A stretch of DNA of 64,000 nucleotides from Halichondria panicea. Its lineage: Eukaryota; Porifera; Demospongiae; Suberitida; Halichondriidae. Shown piece after piece: positions 22,355 through 56,707 of the stretch. Under the pieces are notes generated by a model that was given only the letters and a program-made list of their open reading frames with translations, was not told the DNA's origin and searched no databases. The translations under genes were made by a program, and so were the position numbers. Where the stretch lies: assembly GCF_963675165.1 (NCBI RefSeq), contig NC_087385.1, positions 3,038,501 through 3,102,500 on the forward strand. The letters are read 5' to 3'. The number at the start of each line of letters is the position of its first letter. The stretch's first letter is position 1.

Positions 22355-22356
22355 GC

Positions 22357-25642: not shown

Positions 25643-25668
25643 CGAAACCACATCCTGATGTGGTTTCG
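25643..25668. repeat. Perfect 12-bp-stem hairpin near the right Harbinger end
   Basis: CGAAACCACATC, a 2-nt loop, then GATGTGGTTTCG. It lies in the subterminal zone among CCGGGT/CCGGAT words, so it may be a transposase or Myb-protein binding palindrome. Confidence 0.6.
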
Positions 25669-27323: not shown

Positions 27324-27409
27324 CAAGCCCAAATCAATCACCAACCGAGTAGAGAAAAAACAAACAACAACTAGCAGTCAAGCCCAAATCAATCACCAAC
27401 TGAGTAGAG
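27324..27409 (+). repeat. Tandem direct repeat, about 55-bp period
   Basis: CAAGCCCAAATCAATCACCA (followed by ACYGAGTAGAG) occurs at 27324-27354 and 27379-27409, with one C/T difference. The intervening bases differ. Confidence 0.7.
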
Positions 27410-27726
27410 GCATCAACAGACGTAGCAGGATACACAGCATCTACCACAGCACCAACAACACCAACTAAAAACACTTCTGAATTCCGAGCACAAAAGTAGA
27501 TCCTTTGCAGCGAAGAGTGTTAGTCCTGACCAACACCAACTAAAGATCCTAAGAAGACAACACATTCAAGCCCACATCGTATGAATTCGAGCACCAGCAC
27601 AGCTGTTTTAGGCAAGAAAAATATATTTAAAATACAACATTCCAATTGTGTGATTTACTTCCGGTTTGTATAGAATAAAAACTGGGATTTGTAATATATT
27701 TTTAGTTGCAAGAGAAGTTAAAAAGA

Positions 27727-28125
27727 ATGTCTACTCCTGGCTCAGCTCCCGTTTCAAACGAATTCATCCACTCACTTGGATCAAACAACATTGTGAGTGA
27801 ACCTAGATGGTTTATGATCTTGAAATGCCTCAATGATAGTGCACATGCAAGTATCCGGCTTGTAAATGTAATGGCATACGATGGATCCACTTTACAACTT
27901 GGTGGTAGTGACCATAAATTAAATCCCATTTTGCTGTCTGTTGTTGCTTCGACAAACATTGTGTCCTACTCGAGGTACGCTAGCAACTGTGGTATTTGTT
28001 TTGAACTCTTGTTTCACACAATTAGAGAAGACACAAACAATCCCTTTGACTTTTCATATTTTATGAGCAAGATTGAAGATTGGAAAAGAATACAAGAGTT
28101 CAAATCAGATGCTCAAAGGCTATGA
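27727..28125 (+). CDS. Hypothetical viral protein, first gene of the left block
   Basis: 132 residues from ATG at 27727 (MSTPGSAPVSNEF onward). An upstream in-frame TTG at 27706 is less likely because the AT-rich TAATATATTTTTAG promoter-like tract overlaps it. No domain recognised. It looks globular with a helical end. The stop codon TGA overlaps the next ATG (ATGA at 28122-28125). It may be the N-terminal part of the same product as the two following frames if indels have split the gene. Confidence 0.5.
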   Translation: MSTPGSAPVSNEFIHSLGSNNIVSEPRWFMILKCLNDSAHASIRLVNVMAYDGSTLQLGGSDHKLNPILLSVVASTNIVSYSRYASNCGICFELLFHTIREDTNNPFDFSYFMSKIEDWKRIQEFKSDAQRL

Positions 28126-28256
28126 GCCATAGCCACACATTAACAATTTCTATTCAAGAGACCGAACTGTTGTCAGACATTTTAGTGTTAGCAAGAAATT
28201 TTGAAGTAGCAGACATGTTGAAATTTGTGTCCATACATAGAATAGCACCTCTTTAA
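28122..28256 (+). CDS. Small open frame overlapping its upstream neighbour by ATGA
   Basis: 44 residues, amphipathic and protein-like, starting exactly at the ATGA overlap with the previous stop. It lies between two longer frames on the same strand, so it could be a separate small protein translated by termination-reinitiation, or the middle piece of a gene disrupted by two indels. The next frame is open without an ATG from 28246, which favours disruption. Confidence 0.35.
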   Translation: MSHSHTLTISIQETELLSDILVLARNFEVADMLKFVSIHRIAPL

Positions 28257-28341
28257 TGTTTTTTATTGTTTACAGGTCACAAAGAATATATTTGTTGATG
28301 GAAAGTATGTCCCAACAGATTTGATTGGCTTGTTTGAATTC

Positions 28342-29949
28342 ATGTGCACAAACTCTGAGCTGCTGTCAACCTCTGACATATGCTACGTACTGCACGCTAA
28401 CCAGAAAGTGCTCAAAGATTTCAAATTGAGGCAGGTCAATGGGCTCTGGTCTTGTTGCCAGCAACCCACTTGCAGGTTTTCAGAGGTGTGGAACAGGCTG
28501 AACGGCTCCTCTAGCAAGTCCATTACAGATGTCAAGTTCAGTGCAAACTGCAGGCCTTTCAACGTTGCAAAGTCCAGCATGGCATGGGACACTGTGAGTG
28601 TAAAGAATGTCAAAAAAAACATTGTTCAAGTGCATTCCTACATGCCTGTGCTGGTCTCTAGAATGGCCATTACCCCCAAGTGCGATTGTCCCAACCCAAC
28701 ACTTGACTGTGCCGACTGCACAACTGTCTACGCCAATGGGGACAGTTTGAAAAGATTCATGAGAACTAGGCAGGCCTGCATTGAGCACATACAATCCCAA
28801 TCCGAGCTCACAACAGAAGACTTCCTGGTCCTGTCGTCATATTGCATGGTACCCTCCTCTGGCAAAGTGCAACCTCAGCAATTTCGAGAACAAATCTCCC
28901 AGGAGACATATGTTTATAACCATGTGTTCAACGAGAATTTTACTGGGGTTATAAACAACCTCATGCTTTGTTATTTTGGATTTTACAAAGGCTTTGATAT
29001 TGCACCAAGCGAGATGCTCAAGAAAATACTGTTCTACTGCATGAGGTGCCAATACATCAGGTCTAACAAATTCAAGACCAGACAACACTTGGTGGCAAAA
29101 GACACCACCACTGTTGACACCATGCTCAGCAACTTGTTTATACTCAACAGCAAGTCCTCTATTTTGAGGGAGAAGGTCAGACAGCAGTACATGCACTACA
29201 CTGTGAACTCTGATGAGTACACCTACGAGGTGGCAGAGATACTGAGTGACACTTTCAGGTCCACCAACAGCAGGCTCTCAGGCAATGTATACTTCTGCAG
29301 CATCTTTCATAAATTCAAGAAATGCACCGACCAAACGTACAGACACATTTTGCTGAACTGTGCCCCCTCCAGAGACAAACTTAAACACAACAGGTGCATA
29401 ACATATATGGAGTTGTCAGACGATGGAAGAGAGGAGAGGCTGTACACCGTGACTCCAGAGCTCTTCAAGTACAGAAATGCTTCAACTGCAATGAGCTATT
29501 ACCTGAAGCTTGCCGACTTTTTCAAGTTGACCACAAGGCTCAAGAGGAGCATGGGTGTGTCCTTTGGAAAGAAAGACAAGAACAAAGTTTATGTGGAGCC
29601 AAGCTTTGACAACCTCACAGAAGCTGAGCTGTTTTGGCTGAGGCAACCTCACTCTGTCAAGAGTTGTGACAATCTGAGAACATTGAAAGACACGCATGCA
29701 GTCACAATCTTCCCAGCAGATCTGGTTGAGAGCAGTGAGCCCATGGAGCAGGACAATGAAGATGACACAGACCTGCTTGCCACAATTTTGAGTGGGCTCT
29801 CTGAACTGGAGCAGATGCAGGTTGCAACCGCACCAGCCCCTCCCCCTGAAATATTCGAGGTCCAACAGTTGACCAGCAGTGACATAACTCAGAAATATGA
29901 CTCAATTAGACAATCTGTAATTAAAGCACTGCAAATGAGACAATCATAA
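28342..29949 (+). CDS. Hypothetical viral protein upstream of the DNA polymerase
   Basis: 535 residues from the first ATG (28342); the frame is open back to 28246 and the extra residues look coding, so the true N-terminus may be upstream. It is rich in cysteine (for example CCQQPTC and CDCPNPTLDCADC at about residues 40-135), mostly helical-looking, with an acidic proline-containing tail. No family recognised. It ends 51 bp before the polymerase start, in the same direction. Position next to a protein-primed polymerase makes a terminal-protein or replication-accessory role possible, but that is conjecture. Confidence 0.7.
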   Translation: MCTNSELLSTSDICYVLHANQKVLKDFKLRQVNGLWSCCQQPTCRFSEVWNRLNGSSSKSITDVKFSANCRPFNVAKSSMAWDTVSVKNVKKNIVQVHSYMPVLVSRMAITPKCDCPNPTLDCADCTTVYANGDSLKRFMRTRQACIEHIQSQSELTTEDFLVLSSYCMVPSSGKVQPQQFREQISQETYVYNHVFNENFTGVINNLMLCYFGFYKGFDIAPSEMLKKILFYCMRCQYIRSNKFKTRQHLVAKDTTTVDTMLSNLFILNSKSSILREKVRQQYMHYTVNSDEYTYEVAEILSDTFRSTNSRLSGNVYFCSIFHKFKKCTDQTYRHILLNCAPSRDKLKHNRCITYMELSDDGREERLYTVTPELFKYRNASTAMSYYLKLADFFKLTTRLKRSMGVSFGKKDKNKVYVEPSFDNLTEAELFWLRQPHSVKSCDNLRTLKDTHAVTIFPADLVESSEPMEQDNEDDTDLLATILSGLSELEQMQVATAPAPPPEIFEVQQLTSSDITQKYDSIRQSVIKALQMRQS

Positions 29950-30000
29950 TATATTTTTTTTTGTATATGGTTCTGTGTTGAAATAATTATCCTTGCACTC
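29950..30000 (+). promoter_or_regulatory. AT-rich promoter-like tract before the polymerase
   Basis: TATATTTTTTTTTGTATATGG starts right at the upstream stop codon and about 50 bp before the polymerase ATG. It resembles the AT-rich tracts in front of other genes in the element. Confidence 0.4.
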
Positions 30001-32604
30001 ATGGCTACACTGGATGAACTTAAATTGTATGTGCAGAGGAGCAGGGCCACAATCAACAGAGCTTTAAATAGACTGAGGAACGGTGGTCAATTGCCACAAG
30101 TGTTTAGTGGCAGAGGAAGGTCTGCCAGGGGAAGAGTGCCCAGTCCAACATCCACAGTGCCAGAAAAAATAACTGTTCTGAATGCACTGGACACCATCCT
30201 TTCCAATAGAAGAACAAGCCAAAAAACCAAAATAGAGAGACTCAGAGCATACATCCTCAGAGTAAATCAGAGGTCTACCGACATAGGTGTGCTCGAACTA
30301 ATAGCAAACGTGAGTGAACAAATTCACGAAATTACAAGGCCTCCGGCAGAGGAAGAGGACGAGGATGAAGGTGGAGGTGGTGGTGCTGGAGGTGACAACG
30401 AGAGCGGTGAAGATGGTGATCGTGGTGACGACGAAGGAGACAACGGTGGAGGTGGTGGTGGTGGATCTGACAATGATGACAACACCCTCAGACTAGGCCA
30501 GCCCCTCTACTCTGCTCCAAGTCTGTCTGATGCTGTCCCCATAGGTTCCTACCACCAACTAGACACTGTTGGGGAAGTGAGCCAAGTTATGTTCAATGGA
30601 GGTATAGTGGCAGCATTGCAGTACAACTTGGATGATGTCTTAAGTATATTTGCTCATGTTTACCCTGCCACAACTCCCCTGGGTTCTGTTTTGTTTACAG
30701 GCTATATAACTGGAAATGGCAGACTGTTTGGCTTTGGAAGATATTACCCCCAATCCTTGCAAGATGTTCTGGACCAATTGGATAAATACAACATTGGACC
30801 AGAGGATGCTACTGTGGTCAGAGGCTATTTCCAGGACGGTGGAGGCTTCGTAAGGCAACACCCTCACGGTCCTTTTATGCCAATACATCAGCTGCACCTG
30901 CAAGACACTGGGGGCATTGGTGGCAGTGTGCACCTCATGACCCACTCTGTTGACACCCTCTATGTGTACAACCCATCCTTTGGAGACTGCTTCAGAAAAT
31001 GCCTGAGGTACATTGGGTTTGACTGCAAAGTGTTGAACCACCCCTCAGTGAAGTCCACCAGGAAAGAGAACCAATTTATTTGCACTCAGTTGAAACTCAC
31101 GGTAATGATCGTCTCCATCGAAGGAGTAGATGTCATCCAGTCCAGGAGCCACACTGAACATATAATCTACATGCTTGCACACAGGATCAAAAGCAGCAAC
31201 ACTCATCACGTGTGTTTGCTGAAGTCTCTGGACTACCTAGAAATTGCACTCATCCCATTCATAGACAGTGTTGAAGACATCAGTGGTGTGTTGTACAGGA
31301 GTCCAGAGCTGCTCAACCGGTTTGACTTCAGTCAGTTGGAGGCAGACTGCTCCACTGGCTCCAAAGACATCATGTCAAACATCTATCGATGCAAAAAATT
31401 CTACCTGGAAGACAAAGATCATGGCATGATGATAGATGTATATGTTTTCGATAGACATGGTTTCAGGCAGTGCAACAGGATAGACAGTGAGGAGCTGCTT
31501 TCCATGATGCCATTCTCCGAGCCAGACACTGTTCACTACTTTCAGACTTGCGAAGAGCTGGTGATGTATGTCAACTCTGTTCCAAGGAAGCTAGTGTATG
31601 CCTGCAATTTCAAGCCTGGAGTCAAGTCAGACTGTTTGACCGGTGTCATGCTAGAAAAGCCATACAACAGCGCTTGGCTGCTGGACACACACATGGACAC
31701 GTCAAACGTGCAAGAAGTCAACCACGTGCTTCACACACACTATTGTCAAACAATGCAGACACCCCTCTGCATGCTGGAGGCAGAACTAAAACCAGCACAT
31801 GCTTTCAAGTGTCACGACATCATGACAGCAAACAAGATGTTGATCCTGATAAGGAGTGCATGTCAAGGAGGACTGAACATGTGCAAATATCCATCAAAAA
31901 AACAGCTGCACAAAAACACACCAGATGGAGTCTTACATCTAGACGTCAACAACATGTACCCAACTGTAATGGCACAGTCAACACTTTTGTTAGACTACAA
32001 GAGTGTGGTGATATTCCATTCAAAGACCACACTCCCCAATGCTAACTATTACAAACTATACTTGGTTACCAAGGCTGTCAGCACATGCTACACCTACCAG
32101 GTTCCCACAATGATGTCAGAGGAGCACATCAAGGCCCTGCACCAAGTCAACTTCCACCTGTGCGTGTCTAACTGTGGACTGGCAATCTCCTACACAAGAC
32201 ACATACCCTACCGATGGTTGGCAGTGTCTACCTACTGTTCGGACATGAGAGGGCTCTGTGGGAGGACTTTGCTGAAACAAACCATAAACAAACAGATAGG
32301 GAGGTTTGCAAGACTCAAGCAGGTGTCTCTGAAGAACCCTGGCCCGCTATTGACAATGTTCGAGGACAACCCTAATGCAAGTGTGCAATACACAGACATA
32401 ACTGGAGCAACTTTTTTACCCCAATTTATGTACGTCATGCAAGAAAGCAAAGCAATGTTCTGGAACCTAATAGCACTCAACAATATTCAACTAACTGACA
32501 TTTTAGCAATAACAACTGATAGTGTTCATTTAAAAAATTCAAAATATTATAATTCATATATTACATCTTCTAAAGTTTGTGGAATGTTTAAAATTGTGTG
32601 TTAA
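30001..32604 (+). CDS. Protein-primed-type family B DNA polymerase, C-terminally short
   Basis: 867 residues. The N-terminus is basic, followed by an acidic glycine-rich linker (about 116-162). A DCF...L block (329-331 onward) with a later HHVCLLK (402-408) matches the domain often found before DNA_pol_B_2 palms. Palm motifs: A, DVNNMYP (D648); B, KQTINKQIG (K759); C, TTDS (D840), where family members normally have DTDS. The last metal-binding Asp of motif C is kept. Only 27 residues follow motif C, and these are encoded by conspicuously AT-rich DNA, so the thumb region appears missing. No clear 3'-5' exonuclease motifs were seen. It would replicate the element; whether this copy is active is doubtful. 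Confidence 0.85.
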   Translation: MATLDELKLYVQRSRATINRALNRLRNGGQLPQVFSGRGRSARGRVPSPTSTVPEKITVLNALDTILSNRRTSQKTKIERLRAYILRVNQRSTDIGVLELIANVSEQIHEITRPPAEEEDEDEGGGGGAGGDNESGEDGDRGDDEGDNGGGGGGGSDNDDNTLRLGQPLYSAPSLSDAVPIGSYHQLDTVGEVSQVMFNGGIVAALQYNLDDVLSIFAHVYPATTPLGSVLFTGYITGNGRLFGFGRYYPQSLQDVLDQLDKYNIGPEDATVVRGYFQDGGGFVRQHPHGPFMPIHQLHLQDTGGIGGSVHLMTHSVDTLYVYNPSFGDCFRKCLRYIGFDCKVLNHPSVKSTRKENQFICTQLKLTVMIVSIEGVDVIQSRSHTEHIIYMLAHRIKSSNTHHVCLLKSLDYLEIALIPFIDSVEDISGVLYRSPELLNRFDFSQLEADCSTGSKDIMSNIYRCKKFYLEDKDHGMMIDVYVFDRHGFRQCNRIDSEELLSMMPFSEPDTVHYFQTCEELVMYVNSVPRKLVYACNFKPGVKSDCLTGVMLEKPYNSAWLLDTHMDTSNVQEVNHVLHTHYCQTMQTPLCMLEAELKPAHAFKCHDIMTANKMLILIRSACQGGLNMCKYPSKKQLHKNTPDGVLHLDVNNMYPTVMAQSTLLLDYKSVVIFHSKTTLPNANYYKLYLVTKAVSTCYTYQVPTMMSEEHIKALHQVNFHLCVSNCGLAISYTRHIPYRWLAVSTYCSDMRGLCGRTLLKQTINKQIGRFARLKQVSLKNPGPLLTMFEDNPNASVQYTDITGATFLPQFMYVMQESKAMFWNLIALNNIQLTDILAITTDSVHLKNSKYYNSYITSSKVCGMFKIVC

Positions 32605-32611
32605 AAATTGT

Positions 32612-35600
32612 TTACTGACGTTGTTGACTAGCTTGTTGTTCAGCCAGCAGTCTGGTTGCAGTGTCTGGCTTGCTGTTGTATCCATAGTTGAGTGATTTCA
32701 TGAACTCACTGCTTGGACCTATCATTTCCAAGTATTCTGCTAAGGCTGATTGCTTCTCTGCTAACAGTTGCGTGTTGCTCTTGCCACTGTTTGTTGGCAG
32801 ACCTTCTTTTCTAGACCTTTCACCAGCACTGCCTCGTATTAGACCACCTCTGCTGCCAGGGCCATAAGGACGGTAGCCTCCATAGCCTCCATAACCTCTG
32901 TAGCCTCTGCCATAGCCACCTCCCCCTCCCTTGGAGGGACCACCTCCTCCTCCTCCACCGGCACCTCTGTTACCCTGTTGCATCATTGACATCATGAGCA
33001 ACATGCCCATGTCACCATTGGAAGCACCACCGGTTGGTACCTTGGGTTTTTTGGGTTGTGTGGGTTGTACTGTCCTGTTTCCAACTCCAGACACAGTGGG
33101 CTGTGCATTGGCTGATCCAGCTATGGTTGACACGTTTGGTGTCAAAGGGTTGGGACCAGCTGGTCCTGGTGTTACAGGATTGGGAGTAGAATTCAGCCTT
33201 CTTGCAGCATTTCTTCCTGCTGATGGACCATTTGGTTGAAAGGGTCTTGTTCTGAATGGAGTAATGGGTGTGAAAGACCCACCCCTGCCCCTGGCTCTTG
33301 CTCTGCCAGAAGGAGACCTGGGTACAAAGCCTCTGTGTCTGTTCCAGGCACCTTCGTTAGGATCTCTTCTTGGATTTGGTGCACTGCCAGGAACTCTTGG
33401 TCCTCTGGGTATACGGGGATTTAATATATTGCGCTTGTCTCTTGGGTGGGGTTCAGTACTTGGTCTTTTGCGTCTGATTATAGCTGGAGGTAAAGCATCT
33501 GGTTGGAAACCAGCACCTCCAGGAGTTGGAGTGGTCATCCTTGCAGGCCTTTTGTTAAGTGGCGGTCTGGTGCCTCGTGATGGTCTACTGTCTCTGAATT
33601 CATCAGAAGAAGAGTAGGAGGCACTCCTGTCACTCCTCCCAAAAAATCTGTGAGTTCTAGAGTTGTTTACCACACTGGTACTGGCTACTGCAACATCTTC
33701 GGAACTGAGATCAGATTGCATTGCATAAGAGTCTCTGGGGCTGAACCTGACTCTCTTTTTTCCACGGCGACCTAGGTAAGAGCTTGGGGTGCTTGGTGTG
33801 CCATACCCAGGTGTGCCATTCAAAGTGCCGTCTGTTAGGGGTTCTATTGGGCTTATGTCAATTGATGAATCTGATGTTCCATACCTGGGTGCACCCGCTC
33901 CTCTGGTAAATGGTTGCCTGGGTAAAACCTCCTCTTCAGAGACAGGTGAGTCGTCGCGAATGTCAGCTCGCACTGTGCTGGTTCGGGGTGTGGGTCCTGC
34001 ACTGCTCTGGTCTGATATGTCAATGGGTCCTATGCTGCTCTGGGGTGTGGGTCCTGCACTGCTCTGGTCTGATATGTCAATGGATCTGTTGGGTGTATCT
34101 CTGGGTGTGTCAACAATTGGTGGAGTGTCATTGATGCTGTCATATGGAGTTTGAATTATATTCTCTGGAACTTCTCTCAGGAGTGATTGAAAACTAGGTG
34201 GTGTTGAGAGGGCCGGGCTTGTACCTCTCAATGATATGTCTGATGTTCTTGATGTGTCAGAGAATGGACTTTGTTGAGAGCTGCTTCCTGGAAGTGATCT
34301 GAGACTGCTTGGTCTTGAAAGCGAGATACCTGTGCTGTTTGGAGTGCCATGTAAAGACTCGTGCAGCCAGTTTTGAATGCTGCTAGACAATTCAGTCGAT
34401 GTGTTTGGACTGGCAGTCATTTCATCTGCAAACTGTTGCCTCTGTGTAGTTACTGAAACTCCTGGTCTGGGGTTAGTTGCTTGCCATTCTTCAAACTGTT
34501 GTCTGATAAGGCGGTTCTGCTCTAGATTGAAGTTTGTCAAGTTCAGTGGAGGCCTTCTGATTCCTTCAACATTTGACAGATCTGCACTTCTGATGCTGTT
34601 GAAATCTGAAACATCATTTGGAGTTCTCATTGGAGTGAGAGTCGGTGTCAAGTCATCGTTGAAGTAAAAGTCTTCAACCATGTCTGGAAGTGCTGGACGT
34701 TGTATCAATGGACGTTGTATCAATGATCTGTGACTTTCTGTGGTGTCGTTTAGAAAGGAATCCAACGTAGTGCTTGAGCCAGCTGAACTCAAGCTAGTCA
34801 AACTGCCAGGCCTGTAGGAGAAATCCGAAGAACCATAGCTCAGATTAAAACTTCTCAGATCTCCAGGTATGTAAGTGCGGTCCTTTGGGTCAGGTCCTGG
34901 TGAAGGGCTTGTAGCTGTAGATCGAGCTAGAGGTGTAGATGGCCCTGTAGATGGTGTGCCAGGTGTATATGGTGAGCCCAGGTGATCAGAGTCTGAAAAA
35001 TTTGCACTGTCTGTGTGAGTTATTCCTGGAGTTGTAGTGTATTTGTTCTTGAAATCTTCTCTCCTGTTATTAATTGTAATATTGTCTTGTGTTGTGTCTG
35101 GAAGTATGTTTGGGTTGAGTATGGTCATGCCTTCTTCGGTGGTGACAAATTGACTGGTGTGAGTTGGGTCAACATTTGCAATTGCTCTAGCAGCAGCTGC
35201 ATGTTCAGGTTGTTCTGCTATAATGGGGTTTTCAAATCCAGCAGATGTTGGTCTCATGTAATTGTACAAAGCATTGTCTGGACCATACACATGTCCATCT
35301 TGTATTCCAGTTTGTTGCAGATAGGGTCTGCTTACATGTTCAAGTCTTTTTGCATCTGTTAATCTGGTGTTTGCTGAAGGGTACTCCTGTCCCATGACTT
35401 TGTTTCTGAGTTCTGTTAATTCACTGTGAGTGAGTGCTGGCAAATTCAAACGAGCTGGGTTTAGTGGAGCTTCTCCTGTTTGTACAGGATGAAATGCTTG
35501 TAAATTTGTATTAAATGCAGCATCACTCTGCAGTTGGTCCATGAGGGGAGTGTGTCTGTAGAGATTAGTAAACGGTAGTTCAAGTCCCTGATTTTCAAAC

Positions 35601-37783: not shown

Positions 37784-37800
37784 TCTGCCTTCTGGAGTGT

Positions 37801-39801: not shown

Positions 39802-39872
39802 TTGATATATGTATTGAACACCCTACTTAAGTACCCACAAATATATATAAATCAGTATTGTAAGTTTTCAAA
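39802..39872. promoter_or_regulatory. Divergent promoter region
   Basis: The 71 bp between two divergent starts contain CAAATATATATAAAT (about 39838-39852) and TTAAGTACC, TATA-like for either direction. Confidence 0.45.
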
Positions 39873-41093: not shown

Positions 41094-41127
41094 ACAATTA
41101 TTATTGTGAATTACATGTATAAAATTG

Positions 41128-42905: not shown

Positions 42906-43028
42906 GCTTCAAAATGTTTGCCAGGCACTGTTGGGTGTTGCGTTGTTATTGAAAATTTGCAATATTTTAAATATATATTTTTTGTTATATAAATTTTAAA
43001 TATCAAGAATTGTTATAACAAATCTATA
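42906..43028. promoter_or_regulatory. Divergent promoter region before the helicase
   Basis: Contains TTTAAATATATATTTTTTG (about 42966-42984) and TATAAATTTTAAATATC, the clearest form of the AT-rich element seen in front of several genes of this viral block. Confidence 0.5.
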
Positions 43029-45347: not shown

Positions 45348-45977
45348 AGCTAAGCTACCAATGTCAAATATTTTTGGTTCAGTGTTTATGTTGTCATAAG
45401 TCCACTTGCCAATTTCCATTTTTACAGCTGTTGGATGTCCAACGCCTGTGGGAGGGGGTATGTTTGCAATGTCTGGTCCGCCAGTACTGTAACGCGCATT
45501 ACTTCCATGAATGACTTTGTTGCTAAGTCGATATGCACCATCGTCGGCTTTCAATGTGCAAGAAAATCTGAAGTCAATGTAATACACATTTTGGGTTGTT
45601 GATTTTGCATTTTCTCCCCAGCGAGCTGCCAGAATGGTCAGACTGTAACTTGCTGACTTGAATCCAAAAGGAAGCCTCAGTCCCTCATAAAAAAAATTGT
45701 CTATGTTGTCCACATCCAGATCTTTGGTTTCAACCAAGACAATGTCTTCCCACTGGGCTTTTCTCCTGGTCCAAGCATCAGACAAAACATCGTTGCACTT
45801 CTGCTGCAAACCGGCTGCAGTGTCGTAGTCAAATCTCAAGAATATTCCATACAACTTTGCATTGTGTGTTGGGTCTTTCGAGCCAAACAGGAGTCTTGCC
45901 GTTTTGAGGGGGCTGACAGTACCTCTAGACACTTTGCAGTAAATGAAGGAACCCTTGTCCCTGTTGTTTGAATCCAA
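45339..45977 (-). CDS. C-terminal domain of a virion-like protein (frame-separated from 45989-47023)
   Basis: 212 codons, first in-frame start a TTG; no good ATG. The frame is open further upstream through a Thr/Pro-rich linker (back to about 46150), overlapping the end of the 47023-45989 frame. The product looks like a compact beta-rich domain (YGIFLRFDYDTAAGLQQKCN, YYIDFRFSCTLKADDGAYRL). The simplest reading is that this domain and the next gene are one protein separated by a single frameshift near 46100-46130. Possible capsid-surface or fibre-head domain; no family match. Confidence 0.6.
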   Translation of the reverse strand: MDSNNRDKGSFIYCKVSRGTVSPLKTARLLFGSKDPTHNAKLYGIFLRFDYDTAAGLQQKCNDVLSDAWTRRKAQWEDIVLVETKDLDVDNIDNFFYEGLRLPFGFKSASYSLTILAARWGENAKSTTQNVYYIDFRFSCTLKADDGAYRLSNKVIHGSNARYSTGGPDIANIPPPTGVGHPTAVKMEIGKWTYDNINTEPKIFDIGSLALT

Positions 45978-45988
45978 GTAGTGCCCAC

Positions 45989-47023
45989 CTACATTTCTGG
46001 GTCCAGAAGTGTTGGTAGTAGGCTCAGGCGTGGGTACAGGTGTGGGTGCAGGTGTGGATGCAGGTGCACCATCAGTAGCTGTACCTGCAGGTGGTGTAGG
46101 TGCAGTGTTAGTGCTTGCGGTGCAGAACCATCGTACCTTGACAGAGTGACATCACCAGCCTGCACAGGTCTCTCCAGAGTGACTTGAGTGTGTGTCTCTG
46201 GTCTGAACTGCAGTGTGGGGTAAGCTGCTTCTGGAGCAGAGGCTGCTTGCTTGTTGAACCTGTTGAGAGCAGTGCTGTAGTCTGGTGCATTGCTTTGCCA
46301 AGGATTTCTCCAACCTTGTGTCTGCGACTGGCTGGCCACAGCCATCATTTGTTTCATGTTCATTCCAGGGGTGGTGTGTCTTGTGGTTGTGTGGGGCAAG
46401 TCTGTGGGATCCTCCATGTGTGTGGAAGTTGGACCATCAGTGTAGGCCTGCCTGTGAAACTTGGTGCCTGTTATAGAGGCATTCTCTGGATCATATCCCA
46501 CTCTCTTTATGTTTCTGCGTGTGGCACTGTGGTGTACGTTGGTGTCTTGGACATCTTCGAATCTCTCGCTCTTTGCATTCCAAACCCTCCTTGCTTTCCT
46601 GGTTGTGAGTCCAGCGTATGGGTTGCTTCTAATCTGTCTGTTCTGCCTGTCTCTTGCCTGTTGGAGTTGGTTCAAAACGTTGCTCCTAACAACACCGTGA
46701 TCTAACACTTGTTGGTTTTGCTGAACAGCTGCAATCACTGTGGGGTAGAGCACCCCTGTTCTGAGAACGCTGTTGTTTGTGGCAACGTTTGCATTCTGAA
46801 GGGCACTGAACTTGGATATTTGCTGAGCTCTCTGGGAGTCCACTTGGTCTCCAAGAACAAGCTGAAGGTCTGAAAACGTGGAGTAGGTGTCGCTGCTGAG
46901 CTTGTCTGAGGTTGAAATTCCACCAGACTGAAACCTTGCCTTGTCTTTTTCGTTCTCGCTTATTTTTTCTCTCTGGTCTCCAGTGAGAGTGGTCTGGTCT
47001 GTGGCTGTGGCTGTGTCTGTCAT
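45989..47023 (-). CDS. Hypothetical virion-like protein, N-terminal part
   Basis: 344 codons from ATG at 47023. Thr/Gln/Asn-rich and hydrophilic, with a basic patch (TTRKARRVWNAKSERFED) near the middle and a methionine-rich stretch (GMNMKQMMAVASQ). The last 40 or so residues (His/Leu/Pro-rich) look like an out-of-frame reading of a Thr/Pro linker, so the real product probably continues into the 45977-45339 domain. The start overlaps the previous gene's stop (ATGA, 47020-47023). Confidence 0.65.
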   Translation of the reverse strand: MTDTATATDQTTLTGDQREKISENEKDKARFQSGGISTSDKLSSDTYSTFSDLQLVLGDQVDSQRAQQISKFSALQNANVATNNSVLRTGVLYPTVIAAVQQNQQVLDHGVVRSNVLNQLQQARDRQNRQIRSNPYAGLTTRKARRVWNAKSERFEDVQDTNVHHSATRRNIKRVGYDPENASITGTKFHRQAYTDGPTSTHMEDPTDLPHTTTRHTTPGMNMKQMMAVASQSQTQGWRNPWQSNAPDYSTALNRFNKQAASAPEAAYPTLQFRPETHTQVTLERPVQAGDVTLSRYDGSAPQALTLHLHHLQVQLLMVHLHPHLHPHLYPRLSLLPTLLDPEM

Positions 47024-47610
47024 TTTGGAACCATGGTATTTGTGCTGGGGTCCACTTCAAAGGGTGTGCTTGGCACAGAGTTTTTGGGTATTCCTTTGGG
47101 TGGAGTGGCTCTGTCTGCCAGGAATTTACCAGTTGCCAAATTGGTGTACTTGTTGGCTCTGATCACTCTGATCACAGACTCTCTGAGTTCTTGTGGAGGA
47201 ATGGATGCAGTGTACTGAGACTTGATGGGGTGGCCCCTTGTGGAGTTGTTTTGATAAGCACCACCTATTCTAGAGTTGACAATGTTCTGTACAATCTTGT
47301 TGTTGCCAGTGTCTAGTATTTGAGTGTATGCTGGGATTGTGTGTGACTCTTTGAACAGTTTTGCACCGTCTGCCAGGGTCTTGTGTCTCTTCTTTCCCAG
47401 TATCCTCAAATGTGCAGCTTGCCTGGTCGGGAGGTGATGTGGTCCACCTGGAATTTGGCCCTTGTACTTGTAGTCAAAACTCCTCAGGTCTTTTGGAGAC
47501 TCGAAAATGTGCTCTGAAGCTTGGGTCTTGTAGTAACCTTGGTGCCTTTTTCTAGTCAAATGTTTTGCTCTAGGATCTGTGGATCCAATGGGCTTGGCTA
47601 GTATTGACAT
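47020..47610 (-). CDS. Basic virion-like protein
   Basis: 196 residues from ATG at 47610. Strongly basic in the first half (KHLTRKRHQGYYKTQ, LRILGKKRHKTL), no enzyme motif, and a C-terminus with a proline-containing tail. It could condense DNA or bridge genome and capsid. The stop overlaps the downstream gene's ATG as ATGA. An AT-rich tract (TTTAAATTATATG, about 47640) lies upstream. Confidence 0.7.
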   Translation of the reverse strand: MSILAKPIGSTDPRAKHLTRKRHQGYYKTQASEHIFESPKDLRSFDYKYKGQIPGGPHHLPTRQAAHLRILGKKRHKTLADGAKLFKESHTIPAYTQILDTGNNKIVQNIVNSRIGGAYQNNSTRGHPIKSQYTASIPPQELRESVIRVIRANKYTNLATGKFLADRATPPKGIPKNSVPSTPFEVDPSTNTMVPK

Positions 47611-47680
47611 TGTACAATCAAATGAGACAGCACTCAGTGTTTAAATTATATGTAAAAGCATGCAATGTATCTTTAAAATG

Positions 47681-48307
47681 TCAGAGTAGAGTTCTCATCA
47701 TTTGTTCTTTTTGGAAGGGACCGTCTGCATCAAATGCTATACTTGCAATCTTGTACCGCTTCCTGTCCTCCTCTGGTGTTGGGTTTACTTGCAGGGTGTT
47801 GTGAGAGGTCATGGTTATGCCTCCTGCCACCTCCTTTCCTTTCATGAGAGACAACACTCTCTTGGATGCAGTGGTCCTGGTCAGAAAGTTGCTGTTGGTT
47901 CCAAGATTCCTGAGAGCAGGATGGGCCTTGTTCACATCATACAACCTGTTGGGCATCTGTGGTTTGTGTGCACCAAGGGCACTGCTGAGCACAGGCTTCC
48001 TGTGGTTGTGAGACTCAAACTTTCTCCTGTGAAACCTGTCCTCCTTGGAGTGGAAGGGTTCCCTCTTGGGTCTAGGCTTGTTGTTGAAACTGATGGGAAC
48101 TCTCATGCCTGTCTCTCTCTGTTGAGTCAGCCTGTCTACATGGTCAACAAGCTCCTTCTCGCTCATCTCTGTGTGTTTTGCTCCACTGGTGGTGTTGCCA
48201 GCACCTCCCATCTGGACTATCCTCTGCATTCTTTTGGAGGCAGCGGCCCTCCTGGGTTGCAGCATGTCATGTACGAACCTGTTTTGCAACAAGGTGATTT
48301 GAGCCAT
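47681..48307 (-). CDS. Basic virion-like protein
   Basis: 208 residues from ATG at 48307. Arg/Lys/His-rich (PRRAAASKRMQRI; NKPRPKREPFHSKEDRFHRR), with a hydrophobic, Asn-rich N-terminus and a more folded C-terminal third. No family recognised. Same direction and similar size and charge to the 47020-47610 gene, so both may be core or DNA-packaging proteins. Confidence 0.7.
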   Translation of the reverse strand: MAQITLLQNRFVHDMLQPRRAAASKRMQRIVQMGGAGNTTSGAKHTEMSEKELVDHVDRLTQQRETGMRVPISFNNKPRPKREPFHSKEDRFHRRKFESHNHRKPVLSSALGAHKPQMPNRLYDVNKAHPALRNLGTNSNFLTRTTASKRVLSLMKGKEVAGGITMTSHNTLQVNPTPEEDRKRYKIASIAFDADGPFQKEQMMRTLL

Positions 48308-48345
48308 TGTGACTTTGTGTACAAATGAAAATATAAAAACTGCAG

Positions 48346-48687
48346 TCAGTTTAATACCCCTCCTAAAATAAGTTTCTGTCTAAATTGTTCTTGCAAAGAA
48401 CCGGGGTTGGTCTGCCCACTTGCAACTTTGTGTTTGTTGGCATTGTTAACATTGAGCATTCCCACAACCAGGTCCAACTGCTGCTTCTCCATGTCCTTGC
48501 TGTTTACATCAACTTTTTTAATACCCCCGAGCTCCATGGTAGTAGCCGTGTGTTTTTTTTGAGCTTTTGTTGCCACGTGTGCAGTCCCTGGAGGTATGTG
48601 TTTCTTGACAATCCTGCTGTCCCTTGACTGCTGAGTGAGCTGACTCACATCAAACCTTTCCTTCTGAACTCTAAAAGCTTGCTGCAT
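48346..48687 (-). CDS. Small hydrophilic viral protein
   Basis: 113 residues if started at ATG 48687 (MQQAFRVQKERFDVSQ). A longer frame to 48756 is possible but runs through the AT-rich promoter-like tract (AAAATATATCTTAAATATTT), so I prefer the shorter start. Charged and Gln-rich, no known motif. It diverges from the next gene across about 105 bp. Confidence 0.6.
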   Translation of the reverse strand: MQQAFRVQKERFDVSQLTQQSRDSRIVKKHIPPGTAHVATKAQKKHTATTMELGGIKKVDVNSKDMEKQQLDLVVGMLNVNNANKHKVASGQTNPGSLQEQFRQKLILGGVLN

Positions 48688-48792
48688 CTTTGCATCCTGT
48701 TTGTGGTAAAATAGTTGACAAATATTTAAGATATATTTTTTTGCATGTAAATACATTTGGTTTGTCAGATAAAAGTATTAACAGTTGTCCTG
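48688..48792. promoter_or_regulatory. Divergent promoter region
   Basis: Contains AAATATTTAAGATATATTTTT (about 48719-48739) between two divergent starts, matching the AT-rich element before the helicase and polymerase. Confidence 0.45.
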
Positions 48793-49857
48793 ATGTCTAG
48801 TGCAACTGAGCAATCTAGTGACTCTGACTCTCCCGGATCTATTGCAGAGTTTCTCACAGGTTCAAGTTCTGAGTCCGAAGGATCTTATTCAGACTCTGAA
48901 CAAGAAAGTGTTTCCTCTAGTGTTATCGAGTCTGCAGCCTCGCAAGAAGATTACATGTCTGATCCAGTAGAGCCACTGCTGTTAGAGTCTGATGCAGAGG
49001 AACCAGTTGTTCCCGAGCCAGCAAAAAAGCCTGCCACCAAAAAAAAAAGCAGCAGTAAAAAGAGGCCCCTGGAAAAGCCTGAGAAGCCTGACAAGCCTGC
49101 CAAAGCTGCTAAAGCTGCTAAAGCTACCAAAGCTAGACCAAAAGGACCTACAAAAAAAAAGCCAAAGAAAACTGTTGCCATAGCATCAGACTCCTCTGAA
49201 GGCAGTGATGCAGACGTTGATTCAGAGTTTGAAGAAGAGGCAGAGCAAAAAGCCGAGCAAGCAATCAGAGATCAAATGAGAGAAAAAGCTCTGGAAGCAT
49301 TCAAGTTGAAGTATGCAGACAGGCTCCAGCATGGCAGGCATGTCTACCAAAGAGTCATGACAAAAATCAGCACAGTGTTTGTAGAGCAGTTCAAGTGGAA
49401 GCTCTTTGGTGGGAGACAAGTCGGTGGTGCTATCAATGTGTCCACTGAGCTGAAGTTTGTCTGTGACAGAGACATTGTGAAGGAGCTGGCCGAGCCCACA
49501 GACAAAAGGACATACCTAGCTACCTACGACAAGACCAAGGAAGGAGATGACATAGAATGGCCAAAGTTTGGGGACCTGTTAGATGCCATTGTTTATTGGA
49601 AAGCATTCATGGCCAGAGAAAAATCATGCACGTTCCCAGAAGTGTATGTGCAAGTGAGAATGTCAATAAAAACCATATACACTCACTTCGAAGCTGACTT
49701 TCTCCATGACAAGACAATGGTCTCTGGAGTTCAGTTCAGCCAAAACAAAACTGTTCTAAAGAAACCCAACGTTGTTGCTTCTGGATCTAACGACAAGCAG
49801 ACACAAGACCTCCTGGCAGAAATAACAAGACTCAAGGCTCTTGCCAATATTAAATAG
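48793..49857 (+). CDS. Acidic/basic-tailed viral protein with a globular C-terminal domain
   Basis: 354 residues from ATG at 48793; an in-frame ATG at 48757 is close to the promoter tract and less likely. Residues 1-75 are Ser/Glu/Asp-rich, 75-140 are Lys/Ala/Pro-rich in histone-H1-like style (KPAKAAKAAKATKARPKGPT), then a second acidic stretch, then a folded region of about 200 residues (for example QFKWKLFGGRQVGGAINVST; FPEVYVQVRMSIKTIYTHFE). The disordered charged N-terminus suggests DNA or histone interaction. Function unknown. Confidence 0.72.
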   Translation: MSSATEQSSDSDSPGSIAEFLTGSSSESEGSYSDSEQESVSSSVIESAASQEDYMSDPVEPLLLESDAEEPVVPEPAKKPATKKKSSSKKRPLEKPEKPDKPAKAAKAAKATKARPKGPTKKKPKKTVAIASDSSEGSDADVDSEFEEEAEQKAEQAIRDQMREKALEAFKLKYADRLQHGRHVYQRVMTKISTVFVEQFKWKLFGGRQVGGAINVSTELKFVCDRDIVKELAEPTDKRTYLATYDKTKEGDDIEWPKFGDLLDAIVYWKAFMAREKSCTFPEVYVQVRMSIKTIYTHFEADFLHDKTMVSGVQFSQNKTVLKKPNVVASGSNDKQTQDLLAEITRLKALANIK

Positions 49858-49936
49858 CAAACTCTTTAAATATATTATATTTCATATATATAGCTTGTCT
49901 TGGTTCTGAAAAAACATTTGTTTAAATGTAGTTAAT
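49858..49936 (+). promoter_or_regulatory. AT-rich promoter-like tract
   Basis: CTTTAAATATATTATATTTC and CATATATATAGC (about 49864-49893) precede the small membrane-protein gene. Confidence 0.4.
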
Positions 49937-50269
49937 ATGAGTAAGGCTTACACAGTCGAGATAGAGCAATATGGAGCCACTAGTCCCCCATCAGCACCAC
50001 TGCCCTCTTACAACAATTACCCTACAGTGGTCCAACCCGACTACACGGGACAGACAGTTACCAGCACAGGTACCAACTCTTACCTGACCAAGTCCAGCAC
50101 TGTCATGGCTAAAATCACCAAGGCCAAAAAAAAGCAGAAAAGATACATCAAGACTGTGAACACAATTGCTACCATTCTGTACTGTGTGGCAGCCCTGTTG
50201 GTGATCCTTCAAGTGACAGACAGTGGCCTGTCTCTCAGGTTTTCCTCAGTGTTGAAAGACACTTACTGA
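49937..50269 (+). CDS. Small single-span membrane protein
   Basis: 110 residues. N-terminal Pro/Tyr-rich part with a PSAP tetrapeptide at residues 18-21, then a lysine-rich stretch (KAKKKQKRYIK) and one hydrophobic span at about 74-93 (IATILYCVAALLVILQV). Positive-inside reasoning would put the N-terminus in the cytosol. PSAP is a late-domain motif for ESCRT-I in other viruses, but four residues can occur by chance. The gene is followed 16 bp later by another one-span membrane protein. Confidence 0.65.
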   Translation: MSKAYTVEIEQYGATSPPSAPLPSYNNYPTVVQPDYTGQTVTSTGTNSYLTKSSTVMAKITKAKKKQKRYIKTVNTIATILYCVAALLVILQVTDSGLSLRFSSVLKDTY

Positions 50270-50285
50270 TGCAGTCACAAACTAC

Positions 50286-50741
50286 ATGACAGAGACTGGA
50301 AGCGGTGAACCCCCTGACCCTGCTCCTCCAACAACAACACAGCCAACTGTGAACACAGATGTTCACATACCAGTTCCTCAAACTGTGCTCAACACCCTTA
50401 GCATAATCCTGGCCCTGAGCAGCACAGTACTGTTGATCTGTCAACACAACATAATAAATTCAAAACATGGATTGTATGTTGGAAAGAGAGAACTGGGTAA
50501 ATTGTTTGAAAACTTGGAAAACAACCACCACAAAATGCAGTTGCTCCAAGCCCGCATACCTGCACAAGATGCAGAGAACCTGAACACCTTTTTCTCAAAG
50601 ATAAGGGCTGCCTACCTGAATTTGAAACAACAAAAAAAGCTTGGGTTCTATTTGTTTGGTTTTGTGTGGATTGGAAGTGACTCCTATGACGACAGTGTGA
50701 TGGACGAAGTGAAGCCTCCTGTTGTACATCAAACTAACTAA
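50286..50741 (+). CDS. Small single-span membrane protein
   Basis: 151 residues from ATG 50286. A Pro/Thr-rich start (PPDPAPPTTTQPTVN), one hydrophobic span at about 34-53 (LNTLSIILALSSTVLLIC), then a charged helical region with a possible coiled coil (ELGKLFENLENNHHKMQLLQ). No family recognised. Tandem arrangement with the previous membrane protein suggests a shared role in virion membrane, entry or egress. Confidence 0.65.
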   Translation: MTETGSGEPPDPAPPTTTQPTVNTDVHIPVPQTVLNTLSIILALSSTVLLICQHNIINSKHGLYVGKRELGKLFENLENNHHKMQLLQARIPAQDAENLNTFFSKIRAAYLNLKQQKKLGFYLFGFVWIGSDSYDDSVMDEVKPPVVHQTN

Positions 50742-50819
50742 CATTTAGAGTTTAGTCTGACTGACTGTATATAAGTGTGTGCATGTAGTTTAATTTGATA
50801 ATTTACGTTTTTGTTTGTC

Positions 50820-51740
50820 ATGGCTGAGTCTAAACTGTCTGCTATCGAACAGAGATATAAAGAGTATGCCAAAAAGCAAACCAAAAAGAGGCTAAGACAC
50901 GAAGAGTCCAGTAAAAAAGCTATCATGAGAGGAGACTACATCAGGAAATCCATAAGTGCTAACACCAGGATGGCCAAGTTGAAACCCCAGGAAATCTACA
51001 CAGACACCAGTGCAGACATAAGTGGCTACAAACTGCCAGAGTGGTGGCCTGTGCCCAGAAACCAAAGTGCAAGAATATTTGTTTGCAGCAGCAGTGGGTC
51101 CAGGAAAACCACATGGGTGTGCAACGTGTTGACTCAACCTGCTCCAGGAGGCCTTAAAAATGCTTACTCTTCTTGCATAATAATTACTGACCACCCAGGC
51201 AACTACAGCGAAACAGTGTTAGAAGAGTTCAGAAGGAGAGATGCCCAGGGCAGGAGAGACAGCCAGTTCAAAGTTATAAGCCCCAGTGAATACAAGAGCG
51301 CAAAAGTCAGGCCCAGGTGGTTCAACAAAAAAAACAGCGATGGGAAAGCCAACCACAGCATAATAGTAATAGACGACGGCAAGATCAAACCAGATGACCT
51401 CAAACAGTACCTGACTGCTGGCAGGAACAAAAACCTGTCACTCATCTTTGTGACTCAAGACTTGTATGGCAAAAAGGGAATGCTCACTACTGATGTTCAA
51501 AGTAATTTCAATGTGTTTGTACTGGGACAGTTGCCTAGGGAGGAGCACTACATAAGAACCTTTCTGAAGAGGTTCAGTGGAATGAAATTCAGTCAGAGAG
51601 AGAAAACAAAGTCAATGTTAACAGACAAAGCTGAAGACAAGATTGAGAATATATTAGACTGTTTAGGACTAGACATGTTAGTACTGTTTTGCACAAACAA
51701 TGAACTAATTTACAAGTTTGATTACAGTTCACTAGCATAA
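50820..51740 (+). CDS. A32/FtsK-HerA-type genome-packaging ATPase
   Basis: 306 residues from ATG 50820; an in-frame TTG at 50811 is less likely. Walker A region SSSGSRKTT (K96), where the residue before the catalytic lysine is Arg rather than the usual Gly; Walker B IIVIDDG (D185-D186); a sensor-like LSLIFVTQD follows. These and the size fit the packaging ATPases shared by Polintons, adintoviruses and large DNA viruses, which pump the genome into capsids. It ends 12 bp from the convergent major capsid candidate. The Walker A substitution may lower or abolish activity. Confidence 0.82.
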   Translation: MAESKLSAIEQRYKEYAKKQTKKRLRHEESSKKAIMRGDYIRKSISANTRMAKLKPQEIYTDTSADISGYKLPEWWPVPRNQSARIFVCSSSGSRKTTWVCNVLTQPAPGGLKNAYSSCIIITDHPGNYSETVLEEFRRRDAQGRRDSQFKVISPSEYKSAKVRPRWFNKKNSDGKANHSIIVIDDGKIKPDDLKQYLTAGRNKNLSLIFVTQDLYGKKGMLTTDVQSNFNVFVLGQLPREEHYIRTFLKRFSGMKFSQREKTKSMLTDKAEDKIENILDCLGLDMLVLFCTNNELIYKFDYSSLA

Positions 51741-51752
51741 TATTGTTTATTG

Positions 51753-54257
51753 TTAATAAGGTCCTCCTTGTCCGCTGATAGCTGGGTTGAGTGGGAAGGG
51801 TACAGAAGGGTTGAACGATACTGACTGAGATTGAAGAGACAGCGAAGGGTCTGCCAGGTTGTCCCATGCACCTGTGTCTCCTGGGTAGTCTGCAAGCATT
51901 CCAAACTTGGCTTTCGAGAGTATGGCACTGTTGCCAGAGGCACCAGCCTTGGAACCAACCAGTATTTCGTTGTGGAACAGCACAACCAGTTCTTCGCAGT
52001 TCCTGTTGACCAGAGTGGGAGTGTTTGTCCTTGTGAATGTTGGTTCATCGTCGATTGTGGCTGCAGTTGTGGTTCTTGGTGGATAGTAGTAGTCCACCCT
52101 CTGCTCTGGTCTCTTGATTTCAGGCAAGTAGTCGTCTGAAGTCTTTCCAGGCTGAGGGTACCAGCCAGACTTGAGCCTGGTCTTGAGTTCCATGGAAAAG
52201 TTGACAGACACTTGTTGCTCTTTCCTGCACAGCAAAGTTGGGTGCTCCATGTCCATTGTGTTTATCCACAGGATCCTGTAGAATTCTTTTGCGGTTTCCA
52301 TGTCGTATATCAGGTCTGGAGCTCCAAATGCTTCCTTGTTTCCTGCCAGTGCTTGTCTCCTCTTCATTTGATTTTGCACAAAGCCAATGTCGTTTGAAAT
52401 GTTGAAGTCAATGCTGTGCTCGTACAAAACTCTGTTTTGAGAATAAATAAGAACAGAGAGGGGCTCTATTCCATCCAAACCATCCATCTTCATTGGGTGG
52501 GCAACGTTCAGGCCTTTTGTGACGTCAAACTCGTCCAGGGTGGTGCTATTTGGTTCTCCATGTCTTTGCTCTGTAGCTCTCTGATGAAGTAGAACATTTT
52601 TCTGCTGGACTGCTGCTCCTGTTGGGTCAGAGTGTGTTTGTTGGGTTTTTTGATGCTCCAAGACCTCCCATAAGACATTGTTTGTTGTGGAGTGGTAAAG
52701 GTCAGTGGGTTTGTCCAGAAATACTTCTCAATGCTCATGGTGTCGTAGGACAGCAGTTGAGCAGAAGCTGCAGACATTGCTGGATTTTCTTGCTCTGCCT
52801 GGGCACCTCTCACTTCCAGGGTGACAATTGTCATTGTCATCTCTGCCACTGTCCTTCTGATTTTTGTGGTCAACAGTGCTTGCCTGACCATTTCTCTGAT
52901 TTTCAAAGCTCTCTCGTTCTTTGCAGTGTCTTGGAAAACTCTCAATTTTTTGTTTGCTGGGTTGTTGGTGTGGTGAGCGTGGCACTCGTAGGCCAGTGGG
53001 TAAGAAGACACCTCTCTGTTTCTCTTGCCAAGTTGAGCACCAGTTGCAGTGGACTCTTGATAGGGCAGTCTGTCACCAGACCCAAATGTCACCAGACCCA
53101 AACACCAAGTCGTAGCATCCATTGAAAATCAGGTCTTTGTTTCCAGCCAGGAAAGCATGAGCTTGAGTGTCACTCCTGCCAAAACTGGGGTTGTCCAGAG
53201 TGCAGACCTCGCTGTCTGGCCAAGTTGGTATTTGTTTGGAATTCCAACCGTAGTCAGACTTGACTATACCTCCACTCACGTAACAAGACAAGCAAAAGTG
53301 TTGTTGTGCAATGTTGATCTTCTCTCCGTAGCTGTTGGCTTTCTGTGCTAGCGAATTTTTGATCCAAGTGTAGGTGGAGTCTTCGGTGGTGTCTGCCAGC
53401 CCACAGTCTGTGTGTGTTGTGTGATAAAAACACAAGCTGGACCTGGTTGCATAGGGCACAAGTTTGGTGCCCTCTTCGATTGTGGTTGTTGGAGTGAAAG
53501 CTGTCTCTGTTTCCGAGGCCTTTCCATACACAAAAGACTCTGGTGGGTAAGTCTGCAACAGTTGGTACCACTGAGGGAAGTCTTTCCTGTCAGAGGTGGG
53601 CGTTGGAACAGTTGTGAAAGGCAAATCCAGATACTGGAACTCTCCCCTAACAGTGTACTTCAAGTGGTTGAGGAGAATGCAGTAGTCTTGCCAACCCAAA
53701 ACCATTGCAAACACCATGGTGTCTTTCAATTGCAGGCTGGAAGTTGCAGTGGTTTCTGTGCCCTGCCAGACAACGTACCCACCCACAGGAGCTTCATCAG
53801 TTTCGTCGTTGGGAGCATAGGGTTGTCCTTGGATGAGTTGAAGGCTCCTGGTCAACTGGTGCGAATCACCACCAAAATATTGCATCTTTCCAGTGGGGCC
53901 TGGTGCCTGTGAAATCAAAACTCTCACTCCAAAGGGATCTGTCTTGGTAGAATCTTTTGGCACGTAGGTGTAGGTGTCAAAGTCTGTGTAGCCAGTCTCT
54001 GTAGTGATTATTGATTTTGTTTGCAGGGCATCCACTGTCACATCTCTGAAGTAGTCTGTCAAGTTGAAAGCTGATTGGAAGACAGTGGGCTCCATGGAAA
54101 CAGGACAGAGTGCTTTTGGAGCAGCCACACCCCCTCTCAGCCAAAACATGTCTTCTGGTTCCCCGAGTTTAAAAGTAAACCTCAGCTTCATGTCATTCAA
54201 ATACCTGGATCTCATCTGCTCCAGGAAGTAGCTTCCAATTGTGCCAACCATTCTCAC
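51753..54257 (-). pseudogene. Candidate major capsid protein, broken by two frameshifts
   Basis: Three successive minus-strand frames, 54257-53073, 53122-52508 and 52661-51753, cover about 2.5 kb without a gap and look like one protein of roughly 830 residues. The first break coincides with an exact 16-bp tandem duplication (53071-53086 and 53087-53102), which shifts the frame by one. The second lies somewhere in 52508-52661. Composition is beta-rich and aromatic, without enzyme motifs. Size and place next to the packaging ATPase suit a double-jelly-roll, hexon-like capsid protein, but I cannot show the fold. The break means this copy yields no full-length product unless the duplication is an assembly error. 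Confidence 0.62.
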
Positions 54258-54283
54258 ACCACTTGCTGTTTCTTACCGGCTCT

Positions 54284-54562
54284 ACCTAGGTACACTTGCT
54301 GTACTTTCGGTTAAGCTTGATTGAGGCTTCATACGAAGATAGTACAGGTGTGGTAGCAGACTTTCTGCTTGACTTTTTTTTTTGGGTGTTACTGTGCTGG
54401 GGCCTGGTTGCACAGGAATGCCATCAACTGTCCAGGTTACTCTTCTGATGTAGGAGCACCAACGTGGTAGTCATCATTTGCGATGGTTTGAGTTTCACAG
54501 AGACAGAGTCCTTTGTCAATGAAAACTGGTCTGTATACTTGATCTTCTAAAATTATTGTCAT
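54284..54562 (-). pseudogene. Remnant of a small viral gene upstream of the capsid candidate
   Basis: ATG at 54562 opens a 41-codon frame (to 54437) that looks coding. A neighbouring frame then reads WTVDGIPVQPGPSTVTPKKK (about 54446-54387) and on to a stop near 54284. Orientation and position match the capsid gene's strand. It may be the rightmost viral gene, broken by an indel, and marks the outermost plausible viral sequence. Confidence 0.35.
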
Positions 54563-56690: not shown

Positions 56691-56707
56691 AGCGCCTAGT
56701 TACGTTT

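Follow-up and report, generated by a model that had tools for sequence, protein, structure and literature searches.

The stretch of DNA analysed here (the window; 64,000 nucleotides, C9:3038501-3102500) lies in a 131-Mb assembly of 39 contigs and carries a compact virus-like element of 27,207 bp between two direct copies of a host segment, here called D. The first-pass annotation had placed the element at 27610..54562. Its edges are corrected to 27063 and 54269, both of which are ends of the host repeat at the four borders read, and the last 293 bp it had named are host DNA. Open reading frames (ORFs) of at least 150 aa fill 85% of 27063-54269, against a mean of 0.8% and a maximum of 3.9% in 50 Markov resamplings, in agreement with its description of dense, intronless genes; ORF coverage of the left host flank is 21%, mostly a BEL/Pao retrotransposon. 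The count of about 19 genes given with that description is reduced to about 16, as several ORFs seem to be fragments of genes that have been broken. The features of the locus are as follows.

1..27062, plus strand: host segment D, copy 1, a direct repeat adjoining the virus; extends left to C9:3034011, total 31,552 bp
8306-14270: BEL/Pao long terminal repeat (LTR) retrotransposon, present in both D copies, ends 97% identical
23233-23685: DDE_Tnp_4 transposase fragment in the host flank
27063..54269, no strand assigned: virus-like element, edges from the host repeat, ORF coverage 85%
27727..28125, plus strand: ORF of 132 aa, no Pfam match
28342..29949, plus strand: ORF of 535 aa, no Pfam match; ratio of nonsynonymous to synonymous substitution (dN/dS) 0.07 over 455 codons in common with the C1 copy
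30001..32604, plus strand: probable protein-primed family-B DNA polymerase (PolB), 867 aa, with motifs A, B and C; OTU, exonuclease and protein-priming functions putative
32612..37114, minus strand: ORF of 1500 aa, Ser/Thr/Pro/Gly-rich, frame open to 37864; probably continues the adjoining 37801..39801 ORF as one gene
37801..39801, minus strand: ORF of 666 aa with a C-terminal SAP domain (27.1 bits, cut-off 23.9)
39873..41093, plus strand: ORF of 406 aa, no Pfam match
41128..41871, minus strand: C-terminal piece of a broken gene whose intact relatives have 597-598 aa
41778..42905, minus strand: N-terminal piece (375 aa) of that broken gene; candidate capsid protein
43029..45347, plus strand: Pif1-type superfamily 1 (SF1) helicase, 772 aa, matched in Pfam, PDB and PHROG
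45339..46151, minus strand: open frame, probably continuing 45989..47023; candidate minor structural protein
45989..47023, minus strand: ORF of 344 aa, by eye probably a piece of a broken gene
47020..48756, minus strand: three small ORFs (196, 208 and 136 aa)
48793..49857, plus strand: ORF of 354 aa, N-terminal half acidic and lysine-rich
49937..50741, plus strand: two small ORFs (110 and 151 aa), each with a hydrophobic stretch as judged by eye
50820..51740, plus strand: probable packaging ATPase, 306 aa, with a variant Walker A motif
51753..54251, minus strand: ORFs in three frames (392, 204 and 246 aa), probably one large broken gene with its first ATG 18 bp short of the right junction; candidate major structural protein
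54270..64000, plus strand: host segment D, copy 2; extends right to C9:3124306, total 31,537 bp

The host duplication, which was outside the first-pass annotation's view of the element, was found by comparing 10-kb flanking stretches with the window. The sequence from 54270 rightward recurs 58.76 kb leftward and the left copy ends at 27062, giving the order D, virus, D between outer flanks that are unlike. Reading of the borders showed that the start of the repeat is the right viral edge and the end of the repeat is the left viral edge. Alignment of the D copies over 31,497 positions revealed 12 substitutions, including one at the junction edge, so that the copies are 99.96% alike at aligned positions; they also differ by 12 indels, nine of which add or remove a perfect tandem repeat of 1-17 bp. 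Because the same retrotransposon lies at the same place in both copies, D is one duplicated segment. The virus sits at the junction of this tandem duplication, an arrangement that suggests integration driven by repair or replication, for which it is expected. BEL/Pao elements are animal-specific, and the retrotransposon in the flank, the one feature that points to an animal, therefore makes an animal host likely; the host is accordingly called animal-like here and not, as in the first-pass annotation, sponge-like.

The best supported gene of the element is the helicase. The SF1 helicase noted in the first-pass annotation proved to be of Pif1 type, with PF05970 matched at 68.8 bits against a cut-off of 25.9. 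It also matched 19 distinct PDB sequences at E<=1e-3, mostly named PIF1 helicase, the remainder bearing the names AAA ATPase, TPR domain protein, uncharacterised helicase or Helraiser. The PDB matches and the best PHROG matches are confined to residues 3-431 of 772. The element holds 27 ORFs of 100 aa or more, of which 20 were covered by the Pfam scan, the other seven overlapping larger ORFs; three further open frames were also scanned with profiles. Only two of the 20 ORFs, the helicase and the SAP-domain protein, passed a curated Pfam cut-off, and no SF3 helicase family was matched in these 20. Sub-threshold family matches such as those to SBP_bac_3 (E 0.007), LAGLIDADG_WhiA (E 0.009) and PAC1 (E 0.012) were taken as chance, as was an NCBIfam 'immunoglobulin-blocking' match (E 0.014) far under its cut-off.

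The 867-aa protein contains D-x2-N-M-Y-P, K-x3-N-x3-G-R-F and T-T-D-S in order, corresponding to motifs A, B and a variant C of family-B polymerases. The three motifs had been pointed out in the first-pass annotation. The pattern occurred in 0 of 20,000 shuffles, and both control polymerases, of phi29 and PRD1, match it. Residues C330 and H402/H403 are invariant in a 6-sequence alignment and would be compatible with the OTU-type protease that PMC11071308 reports in polymerases of this kind. Judged by eye against known exonuclease motifs, the stretch before motif A is exonuclease-like but seems to be without the usual acidic residues. The protein ends 26 residues after motif C, whereas more than 100 residues are left in phi29 and PRD1. 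Three database relatives (P0009, P0010 and P0011) likewise end 26-27 residues after motif C; a fourth, P0012 (713 aa), is without polymerase motifs. In the window and the C1 copy the convergent neighbour's stop codon is at most 8 bp away, and in the C15 copy there is an overlap, leaving no room for a thumb domain.

The product of 50820..51740 is probably a packaging ATPase. Its Walker A motif is the variant SSSGSRKTT (window 51087-51113, residues 90-98), and a 44%-identical relative of the protein has SDSGTRKTT, both with Arg where Gly is usual. A single weak PHROG match was obtained, to phrog_2666 of the head and packaging category (E 8.9e-5). Pfam gave only a sub-threshold match to TraG-D_C (E 0.1), so the label 'A32-type' of the first-pass annotation is not established, and the assignment as an ATPase is partly confirmed. 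The other relative of the ATPase is 99% identical. By comparison, two relatives of the candidate structural protein encoded at 41128-42905 have 597-598 aa and are 75% and 72% identical to the N-terminal piece in the window; the structural protein may therefore vary much faster than the ATPase, or the strains may be mosaic. The largest contig listed for the database proteins P0001 and P0004 is 28,633 bp in both cases. Endoplasmin matches of P0004 (E 0.0017-0.016, about 68 residues) were taken as chance.

These relatives came from a search of about 5.8 billion proteins, which needs shared 5-residue words and can therefore miss distant kin. Matches numbered two for the ATPase, four for the candidate structural protein (one being the window's own product) and four for the polymerase. 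Scans of IMG/VR confirmed no relative, and tblastn of P0011 against phages found none. Searches of the genome with three pieces of DNA spanning the whole element, by which close relatives only are detectable, recovered four other loci, as follows.

C1: fragment corresponding to element 27788-33648
C2: fragment corresponding to element 28721-34277; its polymerase copy carries a stop
C12: fragment corresponding to element 27218-30329 with a gap; ends in a 43-bp fold-back
C15: fragment corresponding to element 29864-33967 plus two displaced bits; rearranged

The five loci thus have five different sets of ends. All four fragments include part of the polymerase end, a weak coincidence (chance 0.02-0.03). 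Pairwise comparison of the three open polymerase copies gave dN/dS of 0.09-0.10 and a synonymous divergence (dS) of 0.24-1.5, values which indicate that the copies are distinct strains that evolved under purifying selection before independent capture. The genome also holds, at C13:2358304 (L016), a decayed relative, 32% identical, of the OTU-like region of the polymerase. This remnant appears to be a member of the lineage that is either older or more distant.

The profile scans of the 20 ORFs and the three further frames found no family of integrases, proteases or recombinases. At profile level, rve had no match at E<=1 in this set, and neither a Ulp1-type protease nor any other peptidase family was matched. 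A terminal inverted repeat was sought in the outer 1 kb of either end and none was found, the best inverted match being 13 bp (E 0.012). In these respects, and within these limits, the first-pass annotation is confirmed.

Taken together, the element is likely to be the provirus of a small DNA virus from a lineage not yet described, inserted by host repair or replication in a way that gave the D-virus-D arrangement. In such a virus, a protein-primed family-B polymerase would work with a separate Pif1-type helicase, the OTU-like domain may cleave the polymerase's own terminal protein, and the ATPase would package DNA into a virion. Integration would take place without a recognisable virus-encoded integrase. 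Host repair or replication would join the two viral ends to sites separated by 31.5 kb and so ordered that the intervening DNA is duplicated; candidate routes are break-induced replication, a virus-host circle and end joining between sister chromatids. The five sets of ends, the rearrangement at C15 and the fold-back at C12 fit repair rather than an integrase. A simple insertion of a transposable element was rejected, as the loci have no shared ends. The element has about five frame breaks: 32612-39801, 41128-42905 and 45339-47023 contain a single break apiece, and 51753-54251 contains two, of which one lies at a short perfect tandem duplication; longer relatives back the break in 41128-42905 only, the others being judged by eye. 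The indel clock of the D copies predicts 2.9 such breaks, with which about five are compatible (P of 5 or more 0.17), so that a single event can account for both the insertion and the duplication. The duplication is dated to roughly 17,000-175,000 years under assumed mutation rates, provided that gene conversion has not reset the copies. PMC5210499 describes a Merkel cell polyomavirus integrant within a tandem duplication and a looping model for it. The polyomavirus and human papillomavirus integrations treated there are alike in being integrase-free and at or within a tandem host duplication; they differ in being somatic tumour events of small circular viruses, whereas the present case is in a genome assembly and involves another kind of virus. 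The 31.5-kb duplication framing the virus would be an unusual fossil of the integration reaction, with its two copies serving as a clock.

Several observations weigh against this interpretation. The 867-aa protein had no match in Pfam and none of relevance in PDB, hhalign against the phi29 and PRD1 polymerases was negative, and a PHROG polymerase match was weak (E 0.008) and obtained solely with the relative P0011. As Pfam, PDB and phage-profile comparisons gave no match for the protein itself, it is PolB by motifs and not by demonstrated homology. AlphaFold, given the 6-sequence alignment, predicted the polymerase with a mean confidence score (pLDDT) of 31, above 50 only in helical residues 54-114, so the terminal-protein, OTU and exonuclease assignments are putative. 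For the candidate structural protein the mean pLDDT was 26 (alignment of 3 sequences), and Pfam and PDB searches of the structural candidates gave nothing relevant. The 'structural-type' proteins of the first-pass annotation thus have no profile or fold behind a capsid role and are retained here as candidates. Of the five close loci, only that in the window shows a flanking duplication; at the other four none was seen among repeats of at least 150 bp and more than 85% identity in the fetched stretches, the detection limit being about 74, 44, 45 and 17 kb at C1, C2, C15 and C12, respectively. The true viral ends may be missing, and the insertion is possibly truncated on the right. The D-virus-D anatomy, finally, comes from one assembly.

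This last point bears on an unlikely alternative, in which the arrangement is an assembly artefact or a separate virus-plus-D circle, the chromosome carrying a simple insertion. The reliance on a single assembly and the near identity of the D copies favour it, and so does a database contig of 58,651 bp (P0003) that encodes the 375-aa piece of the window. Its length is close to that of D plus virus (58.7 kb) and fits a collapsed repeat or loop, or a circle. Against this, 12 substitutions and 12 indels separate the copies, the outer flanks differ, and there is no N in the window or in stretches L002 and L003 of a 7-Mb contig. Moreover, a simple insertion would not give both junctions, from D end to virus and from virus to D start. 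Tandem duplication of the whole 58.7-kb period was also considered and rejected, because the ATPase and two structural candidates are found at one locus.

Quite unlikely is a divergent Polinton or adintovirus, with its integrase and protease lost or hidden, that entered as an ordinary transposon-like insertion. Polintons (Mavericks) and adintoviruses are similar in size to the element, near 27 kb, and resemble it in PolB motifs, a probable packaging ATPase and an animal-like genome. As only two of 20 ORFs pass the Pfam cut-off, a divergent integrase could be hidden. Terminal inverted repeats are a Polinton trait, and an adintovirus is recognised by PolB together with an integrase and an adintovirus-type hexon. 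The element differs in that neither an RVE integrase nor a Ulp1-type protease was found in the frames searched, nor terminal inverted repeats at the ends searched, in that five loci have five sets of ends, and in that a Pif1 helicase is present; nor does the 31.5-kb flanking duplication look like the signature of an integrase. At profile level the element therefore falls outside both groups, for want of a recognisable integrase, protease or inverted repeats. Very unlikely is an element that is domesticated or passed on purely vertically instead of a circulating virus: this accords with a virion or capsid fold not being demonstrated, with database relatives whose hosts may be one species and with the polymerase end common to the four fragments, but dS of 0.24-1.5 at dN/dS of 0.1 between polymerase copies, against D copies 0.035% apart, means that the copies were not recently derived from each other in this genome, and the locus already carries broken genes.

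Returning to a provirus inserted by host repair or replication, Polinton-like viruses (PLVs), known mainly from protists, offer the nearest comparison. The replication module of the element resembles, as far as its sequence goes, that of Tlr1-type PLVs in split form. The Tlr1-type helicase has been described as PIF1-like (PMC4642659), and the polymerase part as having neither an exonuclease nor the first Asp in its motif C (PMC11071308). The pPolB-S1H proteins of Tlr1, PLVs and transpovirons are alike in having a palm without the first Asp of motif C, a PIF1-like SF1 helicase and no obvious intact exonuclease, and the Cys and His before the palm would make an OTU-like region a further likeness. 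There, however, polymerase and helicase are fused and the hosts are protists, whereas here they are two genes about 10 kb apart (30001-32604 and 43029-45347) in an animal-like host, the polymerase stops right after the palm, and no integrase or PLV capsid protein was recognised among the scanned frames. Because the fusion is absent and no capsid protein, PgVV-like in that group, is assigned, membership of the Tlr1-type PLVs is not claimed. Mavirus-type virophages (PMC11071308) share the absent first Asp of motif C, at most a remnant of the exonuclease and a separate helicase gene, but their helicase is SF3, whereas here it is SF1/Pif1 and no integrase was found. The endogenised Oxyrrhis element OmPLV (PMC12721341), about 25 kb long, likewise combines pPolB with an SF1 helicase, but with the helicase fused to an exonuclease-bearing pPolB. 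The distinct, endogenised lineage without a recognisable integrase proposed in the first-pass annotation is thus supported, with the refinement that its replication module has known kin, in kind, among the Tlr1-type PLVs. Among the matches listed from literature titles and abstracts, a scope in which subscription papers mostly do not fall, no such element was found in sponges or other animals.

We propose, tentatively and with more doubt than confidence, that the element represents an animal virus lineage of family level or higher, with a split Tlr1/PLV apparatus and integrase-free germline entry, at least once at the junction of a 31.5-kb tandem duplication of host DNA. Its apparatus would comprise a thumb-less, protein-primed polymerase with a decayed exonuclease and a free-standing Pif1 helicase; it would represent either a natural intermediate on the way to the PLV polymerase-helicase fusion or the outcome of its fission. 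If true, the protein-primed small DNA viruses would gain a branch that is associated with animals and does without an integrase. Section 11 of PMC11071308 proposes that polymerases losing the exonuclease gain a helicase. The element offers a test of that proposal, since it has a helicase that is not fused and an exonuclease-like stretch of degenerate appearance.

The host DNA itself showed an unusual feature. Window 1-27062 contains 44 perfect tandem duplications of 9-17 bp in 27 kb, or 16 per 10 kb against 0.04 expected, with none longer than 17 bp in the window's D copy, though lengths up to 24 were searched. The surroundings of the C2 locus have 56 perfect short tandem duplications in 40 kb, and those of C1 and C15 about 2 per 10 kb. 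As nine of the 12 indels that separate the D copies add or remove a tandem unit, a live and regionally uneven mutation process seems likely.

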